Source of the DNA: Levilactobacillus brevis
GTDB taxonomy: Bacteria; Bacillota; Bacilli; Lactobacillales; Lactobacillaceae
Length of the DNA stretch: 64,000 bases
Assembly (NCBI GenBank): GCA_021383565.1
Contig: CP079699.1
Location: 558,001 to 622,000 of the forward strand
Reading direction: 5' to 3'
This document shows, one piece after another, positions 563 to 64,000 of this stretch. The position numbers and the translations under genes are program-made. The notes beneath the pieces are model-generated. The model saw only the letters and a program-made list of their open reading frames with translations, was not told where the DNA came from and did not search any database. The stretch's first letter is position 1, and each line of letters starts with the position of its first letter.

Positions 563-856
563 CTAAAGGTTGAAAACTAGAAAGCAGCTAGAACCCTTAG
601 TGTGACAAGGATAACGCCCACTATAATAGGGTAGTCGCGTGCTGGCCGCCTTACCGTTCGCCAAATTTGGTCTGGATCGCGGTAGGCAGGATCGTGAAAA
701 GCCTGAGGAACGGTCTTTTCCCTCGCTTTGAGCCGATAATTCACGTCTCAAAGACGCCATTTTCCAAGCAGAACCACTTGGAAAATCCCACAGCTGAGAC
801 CAAATTTGACTCACTCATGGCTATATGAGGCGTATTCGCAAACTTTCAACTTTCAG
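563..856 (+). mobile_element. Intergenic cloverleaf repeat, copy A (internally deleted)
   Basis: Copy A of a repeat family found throughout the window. The left end CTAAAGGTTGAAA and the right end (reverse complement CTGAAAGTTGAAA) form terminal inverted repeats. The core has a closing helix AAATTTGGTCT at 663-673 pairing with 797-807. Three hairpins lie inside it: 696-701/715-720, 726-732/747-753 and 759-768/777-786. Compared with copy D, about 200 bp of the right half is missing. The flanks TCGGATG and TAGGATA match at 5 of 7 bases, like an aged target duplication. It holds no credible gene; short open frames on either strand are by-products of the repeat. Confidence 0.8.
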
Positions 857-2156: not shown

Positions 2157-2537
2157 GGGTGTTGCCTCCTTTTGAGAAGTTAAGGTTAGGCCGTTATCGG
2201 CAGTCAAAGCGACCAACGAGCGGCGCCAGTCGTTAAATTGAAGCACTTCCATTAGTATAGCACATCGTTGGGGTCGTTAGGTTTTAGAGTGGGAGTATGG
2301 CTGAGTGATTGCCGATACGACGATTACCGAGGACAGCTTGTTTGCAAGAGTACGCCAAATTTGTGGCTCTCCAGGAGCATTTTGCTCGGACCAGGCAAGT
2401 GGGAGTTGCCAATTAAGTGGAGGCAGTGAGTGGTGGGGTGCAACTTCTAATAAATCATAGATAAGTGGGAAAATTAATTCAAAGCTCGTAGCTTGCTAGT
2501 GCAATGGGTTAAGTCAGTGCTGAAGATAAACGTCATT
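2157..2537. other. Intergenic stretch upstream of the PAP2 gene, nothing recognised
   Basis: Apart from the likely leader and promoter of the PAP2 gene near 2160-2260 I see no gene, RNA or repeat here. Confidence 0.5.
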
Positions 2538-2713
2538 GTAGCCGTGAGTGAAGCGAAATCTGGGCTCAGCCGGGGCATTTACCAGCGGTTTTGGCTGGTA
2601 AATGGGTGTCTTTGAGACGGTGGTTTTCCGGCTCAAAGCAAGGACCGAGACCGTCCTTTGGCTCGGTCCGGCCTTCCCAGCGTTCCAGCCCAGATTTAGC
2701 GAACGGCAAGGCG
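2538..2713 (-). mobile_element. Intergenic cloverleaf repeat, copy B (core only)
   Basis: Only the structured core remains, in reverse orientation. The closing helix is AAATCTGGGCT at 2556-2566 with AGCCCAGATTT at 2687-2697. The hairpins are 2577-2586/2594-2603, 2610-2616/2632-2638 and 2642-2649/2662-2669. All helices pair perfectly although the sequence differs from copies A, D and E, which is the clearest example of compensating change in the family. The terminal inverted repeats are not recognisable. Confidence 0.75.
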
Positions 2714-2786
2714 ACCGGTATCCACAAGCCTATCAATGCAAGCCCGGATCTTCTAACCATTAGTTCCGAAGAATCCCCGTAGCCCC

Positions 2787-5530: not shown

Positions 5531-5543
5531 ATTTAAGTAAAAG

Positions 5544-5626
5544 GTGGTTGAAAACCACTAAATACGCGGCGGCATCGTTGGCGTGGTCACGTTCGGTCAA
5601 GATACCTATCATGTAGCCGTGAGTAA
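5544..5626 (-). repeat. Decayed fragment of the cloverleaf repeat family (copy G)
   Basis: ATACGCGGCGGCATCG followed by GTAGCCGTGAGT matches, with changes, the right-hand module of copy D in reverse orientation. Neither the core nor the ends remain. Confidence 0.5.
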
Positions 5627-5634
5627 GTTAAAAC

Positions 5635-5679: not shown

Positions 5680-5720
5680 AGGGTTCTAAAATATCTGTTG
5701 TTGGTAATCAACTTAATTGG

Positions 5721-5748
5721 TTACTGGCAGCGGATATTTTTGTATACT
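5721..5748 (+). promoter_or_regulatory. Likely transposase promoter
   Basis: TTACTG and TATACT are spaced by 16 bases, inside the left end of the IS and upstream of the start-codon hairpin. Confidence 0.4.
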
Positions 5749-5776
5749 GTATAGAGTAAAAATGGGTACAAAAAAG

Positions 5777-5841
5777 GGATATAGTCGCAGATCTATGTCC
5801 ATCCACTACCACATTTCAAGAGAAAGAAAGTGACTATATCC
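5777..5841 (+). promoter_or_regulatory. Hairpin ending one base before the transposase start codon
   Basis: GGATATAGTC at 5777-5786 pairs with GACTATATCC at 5832-5841, extendable by a G-U and a C-G pair. The right arm covers the ribosome-binding region, so folding would reduce translation. The second IS copy has the same arms. Confidence 0.55.
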
Positions 5842-5842
5842 T

Positions 5843-7102
5843 ATGTCCAATGATACTAAAATTATTCTGGGGATAAAAGACCCTAATATCAAAAAACTGA
5901 AAATAATGAATCCCTTAGAAGTAAAGGGACCACTCAAGGTACAGGCACTTTTAGACTACCGTCCAAAAGCTTGTCCTAAATGTGGCGTTTTGAACCAGAA
6001 GAGCATTATCAAATACGGTTGGCGTTGGACCACGGTTAAACTCCCACAAGCCGTTGAACGAGACGTTAAACTTCACCTTAAAAAACGTAATTTCAAGTGT
6101 AAGCAATGCCATCAATACTTTCTGGCAGAAACGTCGTTGGTTCAGCGAAACCACACCATCTCTAACGTCAGCCGGATCTCGTGTTTAGTAAAGCTCAGTG
6201 AGACGGTTTCAATGCGGCATATCGCAAACGAATTAAACATTTCGAGTACGAGTGTTTTACGAATCATGCGTAGCTACCAACCGGATATTAAGACAAATTA
6301 CAGCTGGTTGCCAGCAGTTATTAATATGGATGAAGTCAAGTCTACCAAAGATGCCAAAGGTGCAATGAGCTTTGTCTTTATGGACGGTATGCGAAACGAA
6401 TTTATCGATATCCTTGAATCACGAACCCTGTATGATCTCGAAAAATACTTCAATCGATATACTAAGGCTGCGCGAGAAGGCGTGAAAATCATTGTGACAG
6501 ATATGAATTACACGTATCCGCAATTGACAGAAACCGTTTTTCCAAACGCGATTGTGGTAACCGATAGGTTCCACATCGTGAGTTCTATAATGCGTGGTTT
6601 CAATCGTGTGAGAGTTCGTATAATGAAGTCCTATGCCAATTCAAATATCAAACATAAGATCTTAAAACGATACTGGAAACTACTCTTAAAACCTAACGAA
6701 AAGCTGAACTTCAACGTCTATCATAATTTCACTCATCTCTCAGGAATTAATACTGAGAATAGTACGGTCGATTACATTCTCAGCTTCAATGATGAATTAC
6801 GCCAAGCGTATGAGCTTTTACAGACCGTTCGGCGAGCCGTCAAGTATCGTCACACGTCCAAACTAGTAACCATTCTAGACAAGAAGAATGATTACTCCGA
6901 AGAGCTTGAAACACCGTTAAATACGTTGAGAGAACACCAAGAATCTGTGTACAATGCGCTAAAATACAATTATTCTAATGGACCAATGGAAGGTATCAAT
7001 AATAAAATCAAAGTAATCAAGCGAGTCAGCTACGGATTCGGTTGTTTTAGTAGCTTTAGATTAAGGATTCATCTAGTATTCGGAATTAAAAAGGCTGCCT
7101 AA
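5843..7102 (+). CDS. ISL3-family transposase
   Basis: A 419-residue DDE transposase of the ISL3 family. The N-terminal zinc-binding cysteines (CPKC at residues 44-47, CKQCHQYF near 94) precede a helix-turn-helix region, INMDEVKS with the first catalytic aspartate, TDMNYTYP with the second, and the C-terminal GPMEGINNKIK, typical of the third catalytic segment. It is intact. It differs from the copy at 37433-38692 by one residue: Pro45 here, Thr45 there. Its lower G+C compared with the neighbouring genes suits acquired DNA. Confidence 0.95.
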   Translation: MSNDTKIILGIKDPNIKKLKIMNPLEVKGPLKVQALLDYRPKACPKCGVLNQKSIIKYGWRWTTVKLPQAVERDVKLHLKKRNFKCKQCHQYFLAETSLVQRNHTISNVSRISCLVKLSETVSMRHIANELNISSTSVLRIMRSYQPDIKTNYSWLPAVINMDEVKSTKDAKGAMSFVFMDGMRNEFIDILESRTLYDLEKYFNRYTKAAREGVKIIVTDMNYTYPQLTETVFPNAIVVTDRFHIVSSIMRGFNRVRVRIMKSYANSNIKHKILKRYWKLLLKPNEKLNFNVYHNFTHLSGINTENSTVDYILSFNDELRQAYELLQTVRRAVKYRHTSKLVTILDKKNDYSEELETPLNTLREHQESVYNALKYNYSNGPMEGINNKIKVIKRVSYGFGCFSSFRLRIHLVFGIKKAA

Positions 7103-7275
7103 TCATAATACGATTAGGCAACCTCAGACAGCCGATTACCAACAACAGTTGACAAAGAGCCCTTTTTAGTTGGGTATGATGTTGGCACGGGAGATAATGA
7201 ACAGGAGTCGTCAATTGGATTTGGGCTAAGTGCGACTTAAGCGCACGCTAGACCAAAAGGCATTTGAGCTAAAGC

Positions 7276-11149: not shown

Positions 11150-11429
11150 AACCGCCTTACCGTTCGCCAAATTTGGTCTGGAACGCGGTGGGCAGGACGG
11201 GAAAAGCCAAAGGGCAGTCTTTTTCCTCGCTTTGAGCCGATGACCCACGGCTGAGACCAAGTTTGACTCACTCACGGCTAAACGAGGTGTATCCGTTAAA
11301 CGGGCTGAACGTTGCCACGTCAGCGATGTCACCGCGTATCCAGTGGTTTTCAGCCGCAAGCGGCCATTTAATGGCGGTAAACCCTGCTAGCTGGGGACTG
11401 GAACGTATTCGCAAGCTCTCAACCTTCAG
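11150..11429 (+). mobile_element. Intergenic cloverleaf repeat, copy C (left end and two hairpins lost)
   Basis: It begins just after the stop codon of the RsuA-like gene. The closing helix is 11169-11179 with 11254-11264, and one hairpin (11200-11206/11219-11226) remains. The other two hairpins are deleted between short CCC-containing segments. The right end TCAACCTTCAG is present and the left inverted repeat is missing. Confidence 0.75.
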
Positions 11430-13943: not shown

Positions 13944-13977
13944 GGTTGCGAGAAGCACCCACAAGGGAGTGGTAAAG

Positions 13978-14475
13978 ATGTCCGAACGCTACGAGCGAAT
14001 TCTAGTGGGGGTGGACGGTTCCCGGCAAGCTAAACGCGCGGTGGAAAAAGCCATTGCGGTTGCTGTCAGAAACGAAGCTGATTTGATCATTGTCACCATC
14101 ATGACGGGTGGCGATTATGTGGGAATCGGCAACAATACCAAGGTCGGTTTCGGCTTTGTTGATCAAGAGGTTATGGATGAGGCCCGCCAACGTTCGGAAC
14201 AGACCGTCGACGCATACCGGAAACAAGCGGAGGAAGCTGGCGTTAAGCACGTTGAGACGTCCGTATTTTACGGGCACCCCAACATCGACTTGGCCAAGAC
14301 CTTACCGCAAGAGTACGGGGCCGATCTGATCATGATTGGGGCGATTGGCTCCAACGTGGTCGAACGGATGTTGATGGGGTCGACTGCGAGCGCGGTGGTG
14401 GCCAATGCCGTGACCGACGTGCTGATTGTGCGCACCGACCTGCAGAATCATTCCACCAAGTTTAAACACATTTAG
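13978..14475 (+). CDS. Universal stress protein, UspA family
   Basis: A 165-residue single-domain Usp. The N-terminus ILVGVDGSRQAKRAVEKAI is followed by a C-terminal nucleotide-binding segment GAIGSNVVERMLMGSTASAV, the ATP-binding type of motif. Role by family: a stress-related nucleotide-binding protein of unclear biochemical function. ATG 13978 is preceded by GGGAG at the right distance; an upstream GTG in frame at 13969 is less likely. Confidence 0.88.
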   Translation: MSERYERILVGVDGSRQAKRAVEKAIAVAVRNEADLIIVTIMTGGDYVGIGNNTKVGFGFVDQEVMDEARQRSEQTVDAYRKQAEEAGVKHVETSVFYGHPNIDLAKTLPQEYGADLIMIGAIGSNVVERMLMGSTASAVVANAVTDVLIVRTDLQNHSTKFKHI

Positions 14476-14518: not shown

Positions 14519-14536
14519 GAGTGGGCTACTTATTAC

Positions 14537-15016
14537 CTAAAGGTTGAAAGCTGGGAAACAGCTAGAATCCTTAGTGTGACAAGGATAACGCCCACTATAA
14601 TAGGGTAGTGGTGTGCTGGCCGCCTTACTGTTCGCCAAATTTAGTCTGGATCACGGTGGGAAGGATCGGACCAAGCCAAAGGGCGGTCTTGTCCCTCGCT
14701 TTGAGCCGTCAGCCCGCGTCTCAAAGACGCCATTTTCCAAGCAAAACACTTGGAAAATCCCACGGCTGAGACCAAATTTGACGCACTCACGGCTAAACGA
14801 GGTGTGTCGGTTAAACTGGCTGAACGTTGCCACACCAGCGATGTTGCCGCGTATCCAGTGGTCTTCAGCCATCGTAACCGGAGGTAGCCAGAGGTGGAGG
14901 TAGCCGTGACAGCGCCGGAATCTCTGGCAGCCGCAGGTGGTGTTGATGACTAATTTAATTGCGGTAAACCTTGCCAGCTGGGGACTGGGGCGTGTTTGCA
15001 AACTTTCAACCTTCAG
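14537..15016 (+). mobile_element. Intergenic cloverleaf repeat, copy D (most complete copy)
   Basis: A 480-bp non-coding element. The ends CTAAAGGTTGAAAG and (reverse complement of the right end) CTGAAGGTTGAAAG match at 13 of 14 bases. A perfect direct repeat TTATTAC flanks it at 14530-14536 and 15017-15023. The core cloverleaf has closing helix 14637-14647/14769-14779 and hairpins 14668-14675/14688-14694, 14699-14705/14720-14726 and 14732-14741/14749-14758. A second module of about 220 bp follows, shared with copies C, E, F and G. No transposase is encoded. Confidence 0.85.
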
Positions 15017-15091
15017 TTATTACTAATGTAATTTAGGCTGATTTTGTTGCATATCTATCGGTGGCTTAAGTCTTTCTTAGAGTTTGGGGCT

Positions 15092-16486: not shown

Positions 16487-17125
16487 ATGTTAATTGCTAG
16501 TTACAATCCCCAAGAATTAGGGGACACTTTGATTGTTATCGTTGCGCAAGATACGGCCCAACAGGCGCACACCGTTCGCGATGGTATCGCTCGAATTTAC
16601 GATACCGAAACGGAAAAGACACTCGGCTACAACTTCTTGGCGATCTCCAAGATTTTGCCCAACATCAGTGGCAATGGCCAAGTGATGTTGACCGCTGATG
16701 ATGTTGCCGCCTTAAACGCCGCTTTGGAAGAAGCCGGGTTCAACGGTGAACTGGAGGCCCAAACGGAATCCAAGTTTATCGTGGGTTACGTCAAGTCAGC
16801 CACGCCACATCCTGATTCCGACCATTTGTTGGTCACGGAAACGGTCGTTGATAAGGACCAGTCCTTACAGATCGTCAGTGGTTCACCGAACATGCAGACC
16901 GATATCAAGGTCGTGGTTGCTAAGGTTGGTGCCATGATGCCGAATGGTCTGATTATCTGGCCTGGTGCTTTACGGGGTGTTGAAAGTGACGGGATGATCT
17001 GCTCTGGTCGCGAGTTGGGCTTAGCCAACGCGCCGCAAAAGCCAGGTGCCCTAATCTTACCGGATGACTATGAAGTTGGCGAACCGTTTGATTTTGAACG
17101 CGGTCAAACCATCTTTACGGCCTAA
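16487..17125 (+). CDS. ytpR: tRNA-binding domain protein YtpR
   Basis: 212 residues. An N-terminal DUF4479-type region is followed by a tRNA-binding OB fold (about 95-205), recognisable from FIVGYVKSATPHPDSDHLLV, IVSGSPNM and LRGVESDGMICSGREL. The fold is also present in PheT and MetRS. Function is not established; it probably binds RNA. It follows ytpP in the same transcript and ends in a strong terminator. Confidence 0.9.
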   Translation: MLIASYNPQELGDTLIVIVAQDTAQQAHTVRDGIARIYDTETEKTLGYNFLAISKILPNISGNGQVMLTADDVAALNAALEEAGFNGELEAQTESKFIVGYVKSATPHPDSDHLLVTETVVDKDQSLQIVSGSPNMQTDIKVVVAKVGAMMPNGLIIWPGALRGVESDGMICSGRELGLANAPQKPGALILPDDYEVGEPFDFERGQTIFTA

Positions 17126-21960: not shown

Positions 21961-22480
21961 CCAAAGGTTGAAAGTTTGCGAATACGCTCCAGCCTCCAGC
22001 TGGCAAGGTTAACCGCCATTAAACGAGTTAACACCACCTGCGGCTGCCAGAGATTCCGGCGCTGTGGGGACCGCCTGTGGCCTGAGAAGCGGTCCTCCGG
22101 CTCGGTTTGAAGCCTAGCAAAATTCGCCAGTCTCCAAACACGTCTCGCGCTGTAAGCTGACTCAGAACGTCAGCTAATACCGCTGTCACGGCTACCTCCA
22201 TCTCTGGCTGCCTCCGGTTACGGAAGATGAAAGCCACCAAATAGATAATTACATCGCTGAAGTAGCGATGCTCGACCGGTTTAATTGGATACGCCTCACG
22301 TAGCCGTGAGTGAGGCAAATTTGGCCTCAGCCGTGGGATTTTCCAAGGGTTCTGCTTGGAAAATGGCGTCTTTGAGACGCGGGCTGACGGCTCAAAGCGA
22401 GGAACAAGACCGTTCTTTGGCTTGTCCCGTCCTGCCCACCGCGATCCAGGCCAAATTTGGCGAACGGTAAGGCGGTCAGC
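21961..22480 (-). mobile_element. Intergenic cloverleaf repeat, copy E
   Basis: In reverse orientation. It begins with the terminal repeat CAAAGGTTGAAAG, runs through the second module and reaches the cloverleaf core at 22317-22458: closing helix 22317-22327/22448-22458, hairpins 22338-22347/22355-22364, 22370-22376/22391-22397 and 22401-22408/22421-22428. The closing helix reads AAATTTGGCCT, a paired change from copies A and B. The other end diverges after 22480, so no direct repeat can be shown. Confidence 0.8.
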
Positions 22481-22554
22481 CCTAGCTAGTCGTGACAGCG
22501 AAGGCAGGTTATAATCGCAGCAGTTCCGGGTACGACGTTGCCTGTTAACTTTAG

Positions 22555-37215: not shown

Positions 37216-37284
37216 ATTAGAGTGCAAAGGCGGGCGTTTAGGTCCTGAGCATTAGGGAGCTAAGGGGCTTCTGTTCGGCTTCGC

Positions 37285-37373
37285 CGGGCAGGCGTCACTT
37301 AGGTTTCTAAGCACAGGGACCTGCCCAACCGCGCACGTTTCAGAGGCCGCAAGCTTGTGAAGTGGAAACTTTA
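37285..37373 (+). repeat. Hairpin repeat R1, left part (split by the IS)
   Basis: GGGCAGG (37286-37292) pairs with CCTGCCC (37320-37326); CTTAG/CTAAG lies inside. It continues with CACGTTTCAGAGGC and is interrupted by the IS at 37374. The rest resumes at 38862 (AGTGTGTC). The joined sequence aligns with repeat R2. Confidence 0.6.
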
Positions 37374-38853
37374 GGCTCTTTGTCAACTGTTGTTGGTAAT
37401 CGGCTGTCTGAGGTTGCCTAATCGTATTATGATTAGGCAGCCTTTTTAATTCCGAATACTAGATGAATCCTTAATCTAAAGCTACTAAAACAACCGAATC
37501 CGTAGCTGACTCGCTTGATTACTTTGATTTTATTATTGATACCTTCCATTGGTCCATTAGAATAATTGTATTTTAGCGCATTGTACACAGATTCTTGGTG
37601 TTCTCTCAACGTATTTAACGGTGTTTCAAGCTCTTCGGAGTAATCATTCTTCTTGTCTAGAATGGTTACTAGTTTGGACGTGTGACGATACTTGACGGCT
37701 CGCCGGACGGTCTGTAAAAGCTCATACGCTTGGCGTAATTCATCATTGAAGCTGAGAATGTAATCGACCGTACTATTCTCAGTATTAATTCCTGAGAGAT
37801 GAGTGAAATTATGATAGACGTTGAAGTTCAGCTTTTCATTAGGTTTTAAGAGTAGTTTCCAGTATCGTTTTAAGATCTTATGTTTGATATTTGAATTGGC
37901 ATAGGACTTCATTATACGAACTCTCACACGATTGAAACCACGCATTATAGAACTCACGATGTGGAACCTATCGGTTACCACAATCGCGTTTGGAAAAACG
38001 GTTTCTGTCAATTGCGGATACGTGTAATTCATATCTGTCACAATGATTTTCACGCCTTCTCGCGCAGCCTTAGTATATCGATTGAAGTATTTTTCGAGAT
38101 CATACAGGGTTCGTGATTCAAGGATATCGATAAATTCGTTTCGCATACCGTCCATAAAGACAAAGCTCATTGCACCTTTGGCATCTTTGGTAGACTTGAC
38201 TTCATCCATATTAATAACTGCTGGCAACCAGCTGTAATTTGTCTTAATATCCGGTTGGTAGCTACGCATGATTCGTAAAACACTCGTACTCGAAATGTTT
38301 AATTCGTTTGCGATATGTCGCATTGAAACCGTCTCACTGAGCTTTACTAAACACGAGATCCGGCTGACGTTAGAGATGGTGTGGTTTCGCTGAACTAACG
38401 ACGTTTCTGCCAGAAAGTATTGATGGCATTGCTTACACTTGAAATTACGTTTTTTAAGGTGAAGTTTAACGTCTCGTTCAACGGCTTGTGGGAGTTTAAC
38501 CGTGGTCCAACGCCAACCGTATTTGATAATGCTCTTCTGGTTCAAAACGCCACATTTAGTACAAGCTTTTGGACGGTAGTCTAAAAGTGCCTGTACCTTG
38601 AGTGGTCCCTTTACTTCTAAGGGATTCATTATTTTCAGTTTTTTGATATTAGGGTCTTTTATCCCCAGAATAATTTTAGTATCATTGGACATAGGATATA
38701 GTCACTTTCTTTCTCTTGAAATGTGGTAGTGGATGGACATAGATCTGCGACTATATCCCTTTTTTGTACCCATTTTTACTCTATACAGTATACAAAAATA
38801 TCCGCTGCCAGTAACCAATTAAGTTGATTACCAACAACAGATATTTTAGAACC
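37374..38853 (-). mobile_element. ISL3-family insertion sequence, copy 2
   Basis: 1480 bp, inverted relative to copy 1, with the same terminal repeats. A perfect 8-bp duplication AAACTTTA flanks it at 37366-37373 and 38854-38861. The target lies within repeat R1. Confidence 0.95.
37433..38692 (-). CDS. ISL3-family transposase
   Basis: 419 residues, intact and identical to the transposase at 5843-7102 except for Thr45 instead of Pro45. The change falls between the two cysteines of the first CXXC pair (CTKC here), so zinc binding is probably kept. The same catalytic segments are present (INMDEVKS, TDMNYTYP, GPMEGINN). The start-proximal hairpin is conserved as well. Confidence 0.95.
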   Translation of the reverse strand: MSNDTKIILGIKDPNIKKLKIMNPLEVKGPLKVQALLDYRPKACTKCGVLNQKSIIKYGWRWTTVKLPQAVERDVKLHLKKRNFKCKQCHQYFLAETSLVQRNHTISNVSRISCLVKLSETVSMRHIANELNISSTSVLRIMRSYQPDIKTNYSWLPAVINMDEVKSTKDAKGAMSFVFMDGMRNEFIDILESRTLYDLEKYFNRYTKAAREGVKIIVTDMNYTYPQLTETVFPNAIVVTDRFHIVSSIMRGFNRVRVRIMKSYANSNIKHKILKRYWKLLLKPNEKLNFNVYHNFTHLSGINTENSTVDYILSFNDELRQAYELLQTVRRAVKYRHTSKLVTILDKKNDYSEELETPLNTLREHQESVYNALKYNYSNGPMEGINNKIKVIKRVSYGFGCFSSFRLRIHLVFGIKKAA

Positions 38854-38904: not shown

Positions 38905-39000
38905 GGAACCGGGCCGGTGCTTAATGGGGTTAAGCGCAGGGACCTGCCTTGCCGAACACGTTTCAGAAGCTGCAAGTTTCCGAAGTAGAAAACTTTGAGT
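38905..39000 (+). repeat. Hairpin repeat R2
   Basis: GCTTAA pairs with TTAAGC (38919-38935), followed by GCAGGGACCTGCC and CACGTTTCAGAAGCTGC. It aligns with R1 as reconstructed after removing the IS. Confidence 0.55.
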
Positions 39001-39023
39001 GTGGCCACCTGAAATTGGCCAGA

Positions 39024-39108
39024 GCCACTGTATGTGGTGTAGCCGGGCAGGCGTCGCTTCGATTTCTAAGCGCAGGGACCTGCCCGACTACACAAATTTT
39101 CAAGTGGC
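39024..39108 (+). repeat. Hairpin repeat R3
   Basis: GTGTAGCCGGGCAGG (39037-39051) pairs with CCTGCCCGACTACAC (39079-39093) with one mismatch. The outer arms GCCACT/AGTGGC (39024-39029, 39103-39108) extend it. It shares TTTCTAAGC and CAGGGACCTGCCC with R1. Confidence 0.65.
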
Positions 39109-54257: not shown

Positions 54258-54279
54258 GCGAATCGCAGATCTAAGGGGT

Positions 54280-54395
54280 GAAGGGTCGCGAACACGTTCC
54301 GATCCTCAGCTGGCAAGGGTCGACATTAAATGAGTCAGCAACATCACCTGCGTTTGAGACCGTCTGTGGTCTGAGAGGGGGCGCCTTTTATACAG
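54280..54395 (-). repeat. Decayed fragment of the cloverleaf repeat family (copy F)
   Basis: GTGAAGGGTCGCGAACACG, CAGCTGGCAAGG and CATCACCTGCG match the end and second module of copy E with many changes. The core is missing. Confidence 0.5.
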
Positions 54396-63720: not shown

Positions 63721-64000
63721 ATGAAGATTTCATACAATTGGATTAAAGAATATTTAGACTTAAACGTAAAACCCGCTGACCTGGCGGAAAAAATCGAACG
63801 GACTTCCGTGGAAGTCGATGGCGTTACCACGCCAAGCGACGGCCTCAAGAAGATCGTGGTTGGTCACGTCCTTTCCATGGTCGCTCATCCGGACTCCGAT
63901 CATCTTCACATCTGCCAAGTTGATGTGGGTGAAGACGATCCCTTACAGATCGTGTGTGGTGCACCGAACGTGGCGGCCGGTCAAAACGTCATCGTGGCCT
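63721..64000 (+). CDS. pheT: Phenylalanyl-tRNA synthetase beta subunit, N-terminal part (cut by window end)
   Basis: The first 93 codons are visible: [28 protein letters not shown] and the tRNA-binding OB fold with [19 protein letters not shown], related to YtpR at 16487-17125. The frame is open to the end of the window. Confidence 0.96.

Follow-up and report, generated by a model that had tools for sequence, protein, structure and literature searches.

Bacterial MITEs such as QMITE2 of Coxiella (PMC10969869) are short, non-coding and intergenic, possess inverted ends (TIRs) and target duplications of 7-9 bp, carry no transposase of their own and have transcripts predicted to be structured; the repeat family analysed in this study resembles them in all these respects. 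The REP/BIME/REPIN repeats with RAYT (PMC3733652) likewise resemble the family in being chromosomal and intergenic, in having units in opposite orientation, in lying mostly downstream of genes and in their high copy number. REPs are palindromes of 20-40 bp tagged GTAG or CGTC (PMC3733652). BOX, RUP, ERIC and NEMIS are interspersed palindromes, some 100-200 bp in length, with the capacity to fold as RNA; BOX and RUP are also covered in PMC10969869. With the structured RNAs collected in Rfam the family shares an ornate conserved fold backed by covariation.

The window, i.e. the whole stretch of 64,000 nucleotides analysed (G000:C1:558001-622000), is part of a 2.68-Mb Levilactobacillus genome, referred to here as the own genome. 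An earlier note, made from the sequence alone, had described five intergenic copies (A-E) of a cloverleaf-like core with paired changes in its helices, had concluded that the fold is maintained and had not recognised the family. All five copies were found near the positions reported for them, and two more fragments were identified in the window (Table 1). The paired changes also held and are present in the alignment of the copies: the closing helix reads CAAATTTGGTC/GACCAAATTTG in copy A, CAAATTTGGCC/GGCCAAATTTG in copy E and TAAATCTGGGC/GCCCAGATTTC in copy B, and one hairpin reads ATTTTCCAAG/CTTGGAAAAT in copies A, D and E and ATTTACCAGC/GCTGGTAAAT in copy B. The boundaries required correction. 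The element is wider than the core: it holds two units, and the cloverleaf at 14637-14779 covers its left half alone. The cloverleaf itself is an antisense version, since diverged, of a unit of about 190 nt that comes in divergent pairs.

Table 1. Positions of element copies, their units and target-site duplications in the window.
Feature	Position	Strand	Remarks
Copy A	563..856	+	Internally deleted element; TIRs 563-576 and 843-856
Copy A, leftward unit	about 649-827	sense on -	Covariance-model match
Copy B	2526..2739	-	Fragment, leftward unit only; unit sense strand + at 2540-2707
Element fragment	5543..5632	-	Consensus 240-337; adjoins ISL3-family insertion sequence
Copy C	11150..11429	+	Remnant; consensus 83-334 and 514-601
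Copy D, left target-site duplication	14530..14536		ttattac
Copy D	14537..15016	+	Internal deletion; TIRs 14537-14550 and 15003-15016
Copy D, leftward unit	14622..14800	-	Includes cloverleaf 14637-14779; unit sense on - strand
Copy D, rightward-unit remnant	14870..14939	+	65 bits
Copy D, right target-site duplication	15017..15023		ttattac
Copy E	21961..22495	-	Core nearly complete, both units present
Copy E, rightward unit	22035..22225	-	Full length, 206.8 bits; reference for single-sequence fold
Copy E, leftward unit	22301..22468	+	Copy inverted, hence sense on + strand
Terminal element fragment	54272..54377	-	Consensus 471-600

Copy D is flanked by a universal-stress-protein gene (13969-14475) and a short reverse ORF. 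In a DNA search, 40 of 164 candidate genome places were scored and all 40 matched copy D. Across 464 kb of contiguous own-genome sequence, 31 element copies and fragments were counted (67/Mb), five of them longer than 400 bp. Other repeats also occur in the window. An ISL3-family insertion sequence (419-aa transposase) is present as two 100% identical inverted copies (5682-7161 and 37374-38853), which could flip the intervening 30 kb through recombination. About 50 bp separate the first copy from an element fragment, and the second is bracketed by an imperfect repeat pair (37283-37368 and 38931-39099, about 80% identical) outside the element family. A 70% identical repeat (16847-16920 and 63925-63998), the first copy of which falls within a tRNA-binding-domain gene (DUF4479), is likely to be a paralogous domain.

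The intact consensus of the element is about 600 bp long and is bounded by CTRAAGGTTGAAAG and CTTTCAACCTTYAG (14-bp inverted ends); the interior of copy D is shorter by about 115 bp. Target duplications measure 7-9 bp overall and 7-8 bp around consensus copies of the own genome, where besides that of copy D the duplications atgtttga, ataaataa and gctaataa were identified (L017, L018 and L026). This TIR pair was found in the own genome and in genus g38; the variant CTAAAGGTTGCAAG was found in one L. brevis copy. Recognisable TIRs were not seen in the unit-bearing copies of several lineages (g4, G005 and G010), and thus the TIR is not universal.

Each element contains two homologous units of about 190 nt in divergent inverted arrangement, with the left-hand unit on the - strand and its right-hand partner on the +, each starting near AGCCGGAGG and ending near CCGGAGGCGG. 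The cloverleaf corresponds to the leftward unit viewed on the antisense strand, and the covariance model recognises its - strand. The model matched the left unit in copies A and D and, on the + strand, in the inverted copies B and E (Table 1), and in other genera both units are able to score highly. Multi-unit loci are almost all minus-then-plus, their units separated by about 15-370 bp; in a few the units share a strand, and no locus is plus-then-minus. In g38 (G321) there are pristine copies of about 540 bp that share these ends, the target duplications and the pair of units; the spacer between units there goes down to 15-27 bp and therefore leaves little space for internal promoters. L. acidifarinae, L. 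spicheri and L. namurensis have a shorter unit variant from which the last hairpin is missing. The units are better conserved between species than the remainder of the element, and the long closing stem varies in sequence even among the copies of one genome, with its complementarity kept.

The RNAalifold consensus of 119 units is multibranched and has 65 pairs. The covariance model and covariation test that the earlier note had proposed as a check were run on units from many genomes, and significant pairs were obtained: with 112 units drawn from several genera, E<0.05 was attained by 33 column pairs, of which 32 belong to the 65-bp fold and the 33rd is nested within the last hairpin. The test was a custom tree-aware shuffling script modelled on R-scape, not R-scape itself. 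Standard pairs occupied 96% of pair cells, compared with 32-42% when the partner was slid by 1-3 columns; two-sided changes were found at 44 of 45 pairs, and none of 500 shuffles reached the observed values. Alignment A4 was built with a model already holding part of the fold, and hence a structure-blind MAFFT alignment with a single-sequence MFE fold is the cleaner control. It gave 27 significant pairs, 21 of them in that fold; the other six belong to the consensus helices or are nested inside them. Significance arose once other genera joined the Levilactobacillus cores; for 79 Levilactobacillus cores alone no pair was found at E<0.05, although each of the ten top-scoring pairs fell in the fold. 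The maintenance of the fold claimed in the earlier note was therefore upheld, with the structure-blind alignment in agreement. These results show that the internal fold is kept by matched mutations while the letters change, and for this reason the fold, not the sequence, is probably what is read. On the sense strand GU exceeded AC (224:142), but the ratio was only 160:121 when limited to pairs that both strands predict, which is a weak hint of a preferred folding strand.

The failure to recognise the family also held as far as RNA families are concerned: comparison with Rfam at gathering and relaxed thresholds gave nothing credible, the best being a 16-bit match to Glutamine-II (E 0.22). As to an insertion-sequence origin of the pairing, which had been named as a possible refutation, the TIRs and target duplications account for the outermost ends only and do not explain the internal covarying helices. 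Another explanation is that the element is a protein-coding remnant or the end of an insertion sequence in which the pairing is incidental. In its favour, some frames of the own-genome consensus are open for 100-150 codons; against it, open frames are no commoner than in the shuffled control, unit lengths are spread modulo 3 and are not multiples of 3, and no Pfam match was found for the element. A protein-coding origin was rejected on these grounds, and this explanation as a whole is all but excluded.

Comparison of orthologous intergenic sites in L. wangkuiensis, L. mulengensis and L. lanxiensis revealed flanks about 94-97% identical, and the units at three such sites differed by 17-52%, their pairs mostly compensated. 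One of these units showed 92% identity to a non-orthologous copy on another contig of a sister genome, against about 81% to its positional counterpart. We infer that units are exchanged by gene conversion or turnover among hundreds of copies. Because such processes help to spread paired changes, covariation at one locus alone is no proof of selection on that copy. At one orthologous site (L060, L073 and L087, about 8.1 kb) the outer stem is common and the whole interior is replaced by a different unit type. It could be argued that the paired changes are a mutational by-product of quasi-palindrome template switching or gene conversion, the fold itself being unselected. Hairpin-rich DNA is prone to template switching that perfects the arms, and the exchange of internal segments between units at orthologous sites speaks for this view. 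However, it leaves unexplained the conserved unpaired letters in junctions and loops, the long-range helices closing the multibranch and the presence of the 65-bp architecture in 11 genera, and we consider it very unlikely.

Evidence on mobility came from the ends. The exact TIR had 72 matches in G321 (g38) and its reversed control pattern none. Fifteen TIR-bounded elements, fourteen from G321 and one from the Levilactobacillus genome G022, were tested; they hold the unit pair or part of it, and 13 of them have 7-9 bp duplications, compared with 2 of 210 mismatched control flank pairings. The family is thus a mobile or formerly mobile non-coding chromosomal element. No clean empty site could be delimited for copy E, the flanks being too diverged.

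No autonomous element with the same ends was found among the TIR pairs of the own genome or at the sites considered in G321 and G022. Apart from an IS3-family insertion, the long TIR pairs were formed by separate elements lying next to each other. In the own genome the single long TIR pair was rejected as a candidate, as it represents an IS3-family insertion within an element copy (at L169, G000:C1:811000-815200, an IS3-type two-ORF insertion sequence sits inside the copy). A 3.7-kb TIR pair in G321 was rejected since it consists of two separate elements around a polysaccharide operon (L262, G321:C5:242200-246400; glycosyltransferase and deacetylase genes), an arrangement that may be a composite unit. 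The ISL3-family insertion sequence of the window was excluded as the mover, its ends being unrelated. Phage or plasmid origin was rejected, as neither collection searched gave a match. Contigs at L266, L280 and L279 (G309, g38) terminate 13-30 bases within the TIR, which suggests either that copies there are almost identical and arose very recently or that a longer element bounded by these ends is hidden.

Analysis of the distribution revealed the core in 29 of 36 genomes of the genus Levilactobacillus by DNA search. A covariance model of the right-hand unit (R1) matched 66 of 301 Lactobacillaceae genomes, and the second model, R2, for which 122 units from several genera were used, matched 88 of 301, in 11 of 40 genera and often with many copies. 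Unit matches numbered at least 129 in L. brevis CD0817, at least 137 in L. spicheri, 50 in L. namurensis and 46 in L. acidifarinae; the folded unit thus reaches tens to hundreds of copies per chromosome over at least 11 genera. No unit was found in five Lentilactobacillus species, Secundilactobacillus oryzae, Ligilactobacillus aviarius or Apilactobacillus ozensis. An order-level search gave only two genomes outside the family, both with weak matches, and in a class-level search none of 398 other Bacilli genomes matched, a few of these being Lactobacillaceae of non-carrier genera. Apart from the two weak outside matches, the family is confined to Lactobacillaceae in the samples searched.

This distribution bears on a further explanation, namely a host-maintained repeat of the REP/BIME kind (with a role in nucleoid, supercoiling or termination) consisting of inverted pairs homogenised by gene conversion, TIR mobility being secondary or past. 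It is supported by the restriction to chromosomes in the collections searched, the inverted pairs, the 3' and convergent placement and the retention at orthologous sites; published REPs have the same layout (PMC3733652). However, clear TIRs and target duplications occur in two genera, and the element is missing from 29 of the 40 Lactobacillaceae genera sampled and therefore has no essential role. Furthermore, no Y1_Tnp was found in 35 of the 66 element-bearing genomes (R1-detected), by which a RAYT/Y1 transposase was also rejected as the mover. We regard this explanation as unlikely.

At the 41 loci where both neighbours are present, the flanking genes are convergent in 18 cases, tandem in 21 and divergent in two; in the 464 kb of the own genome a copy is present in 6 of 43 convergent, 10 of 151 tandem and 2 of 48 divergent gaps. 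An intrinsic-terminator-like site lies between gene and element in 19 of 40 cases. The placement fits insertion into harmless DNA equally with a role at the 3' end. One rival explanation is that the unit is a structured RNA which a MITE carries and spreads and which serves the cell or its regulation as an mRNA stabiliser, terminator, processing site or decoy. Transcription of the unit is presumed in this explanation, and the symmetric layout would ensure that read-through from either side yields one sense unit. The ornate fold with conserved junction and loop nucleotides, the excess of GU over AC and the skew of placement to gene 3' ends support it. On the other hand, given the terminator-like sites preceding the element, many copies would receive little transcription, the unit shows no apparent conserved promoter or T-tract, with a spacer as short as that in g38, and selection against harmful insertions would give an equal placement bias. 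This explanation remains possible.

Our main reading is a MITE-like non-coding mobile element whose fold-dependent units serve its propagation, with a transposase acting in trans. The propagation role and the transposase are inferred, neither a transposase nor a transcript having been identified, and we hold this reading to be as likely right as wrong. In it, a DDE-type transposase encoded elsewhere would cut at the CTRAAGGTTGAAAG ends. The folded units would be cis-acting, fold-dependent parts required for persistence of the element, so that selection would act on shape; the fold may be read in RNA from read-through transcription or in DNA made single-stranded when the element is mobilised or replicated. 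Compensated variants would be passed between the numerous copies by gene conversion, and therefore sequence would change fast and the fold would stay. The divergent layout would provide one sense unit per strand and consequently the same behaviour of the element in either orientation. Against the main reading stand the lack of any transposase found with these ends, the lineages without recognisable TIRs, the weak wobble asymmetry and the absence of a demonstrated role of the fold in mobilisation. A bolder reading, to which we give rather less credence, is a new class of fold-defined mobile element whose inverted pair of ornate units would itself be the substrate or active RNA recognised by shape, by an unidentified host or mobile factor, and which would have spread through the Lactobacillaceae independently of any one set of TIRs.

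The family makes up a noticeable share of many lactobacillus chromosomes, and such repeats affect assembly, annotation and strain typing of the carrier genomes. Its many natural variants in culturable food bacteria make it a tractable case for finding out what recognises the shape of nucleic acid in a mobile element, and the family bears on whether the interiors of MITEs can hold selected structure. No description of it in lactobacilli was found in the literature searched (open-licence papers only), and the repeat family is likely to be undescribed. The nearest kinds are MITEs (PMC10969869) and REP/REPIN (PMC3733652), and the size and covariation of the unit differ from both. In contrast to bacterial MITEs, the element is about 600 bp long, with two internal covarying multibranched units and a core common to 11 genera. 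Unlike REPs, its unit is not a short GTAG/CGTC-tagged hairpin but a multibranched fold of about 190 nt and 65 bp, and many carriers are without Y1_Tnp. It differs from BOX, RUP, ERIC and NEMIS in sequence, in its range over 11 genera and in its paired-unit layout; to our knowledge, quantified covariation of such extent is not known in those families. Compared with the structured RNAs of Rfam, the unit matches no family, is multicopy and resides within a mobile element.
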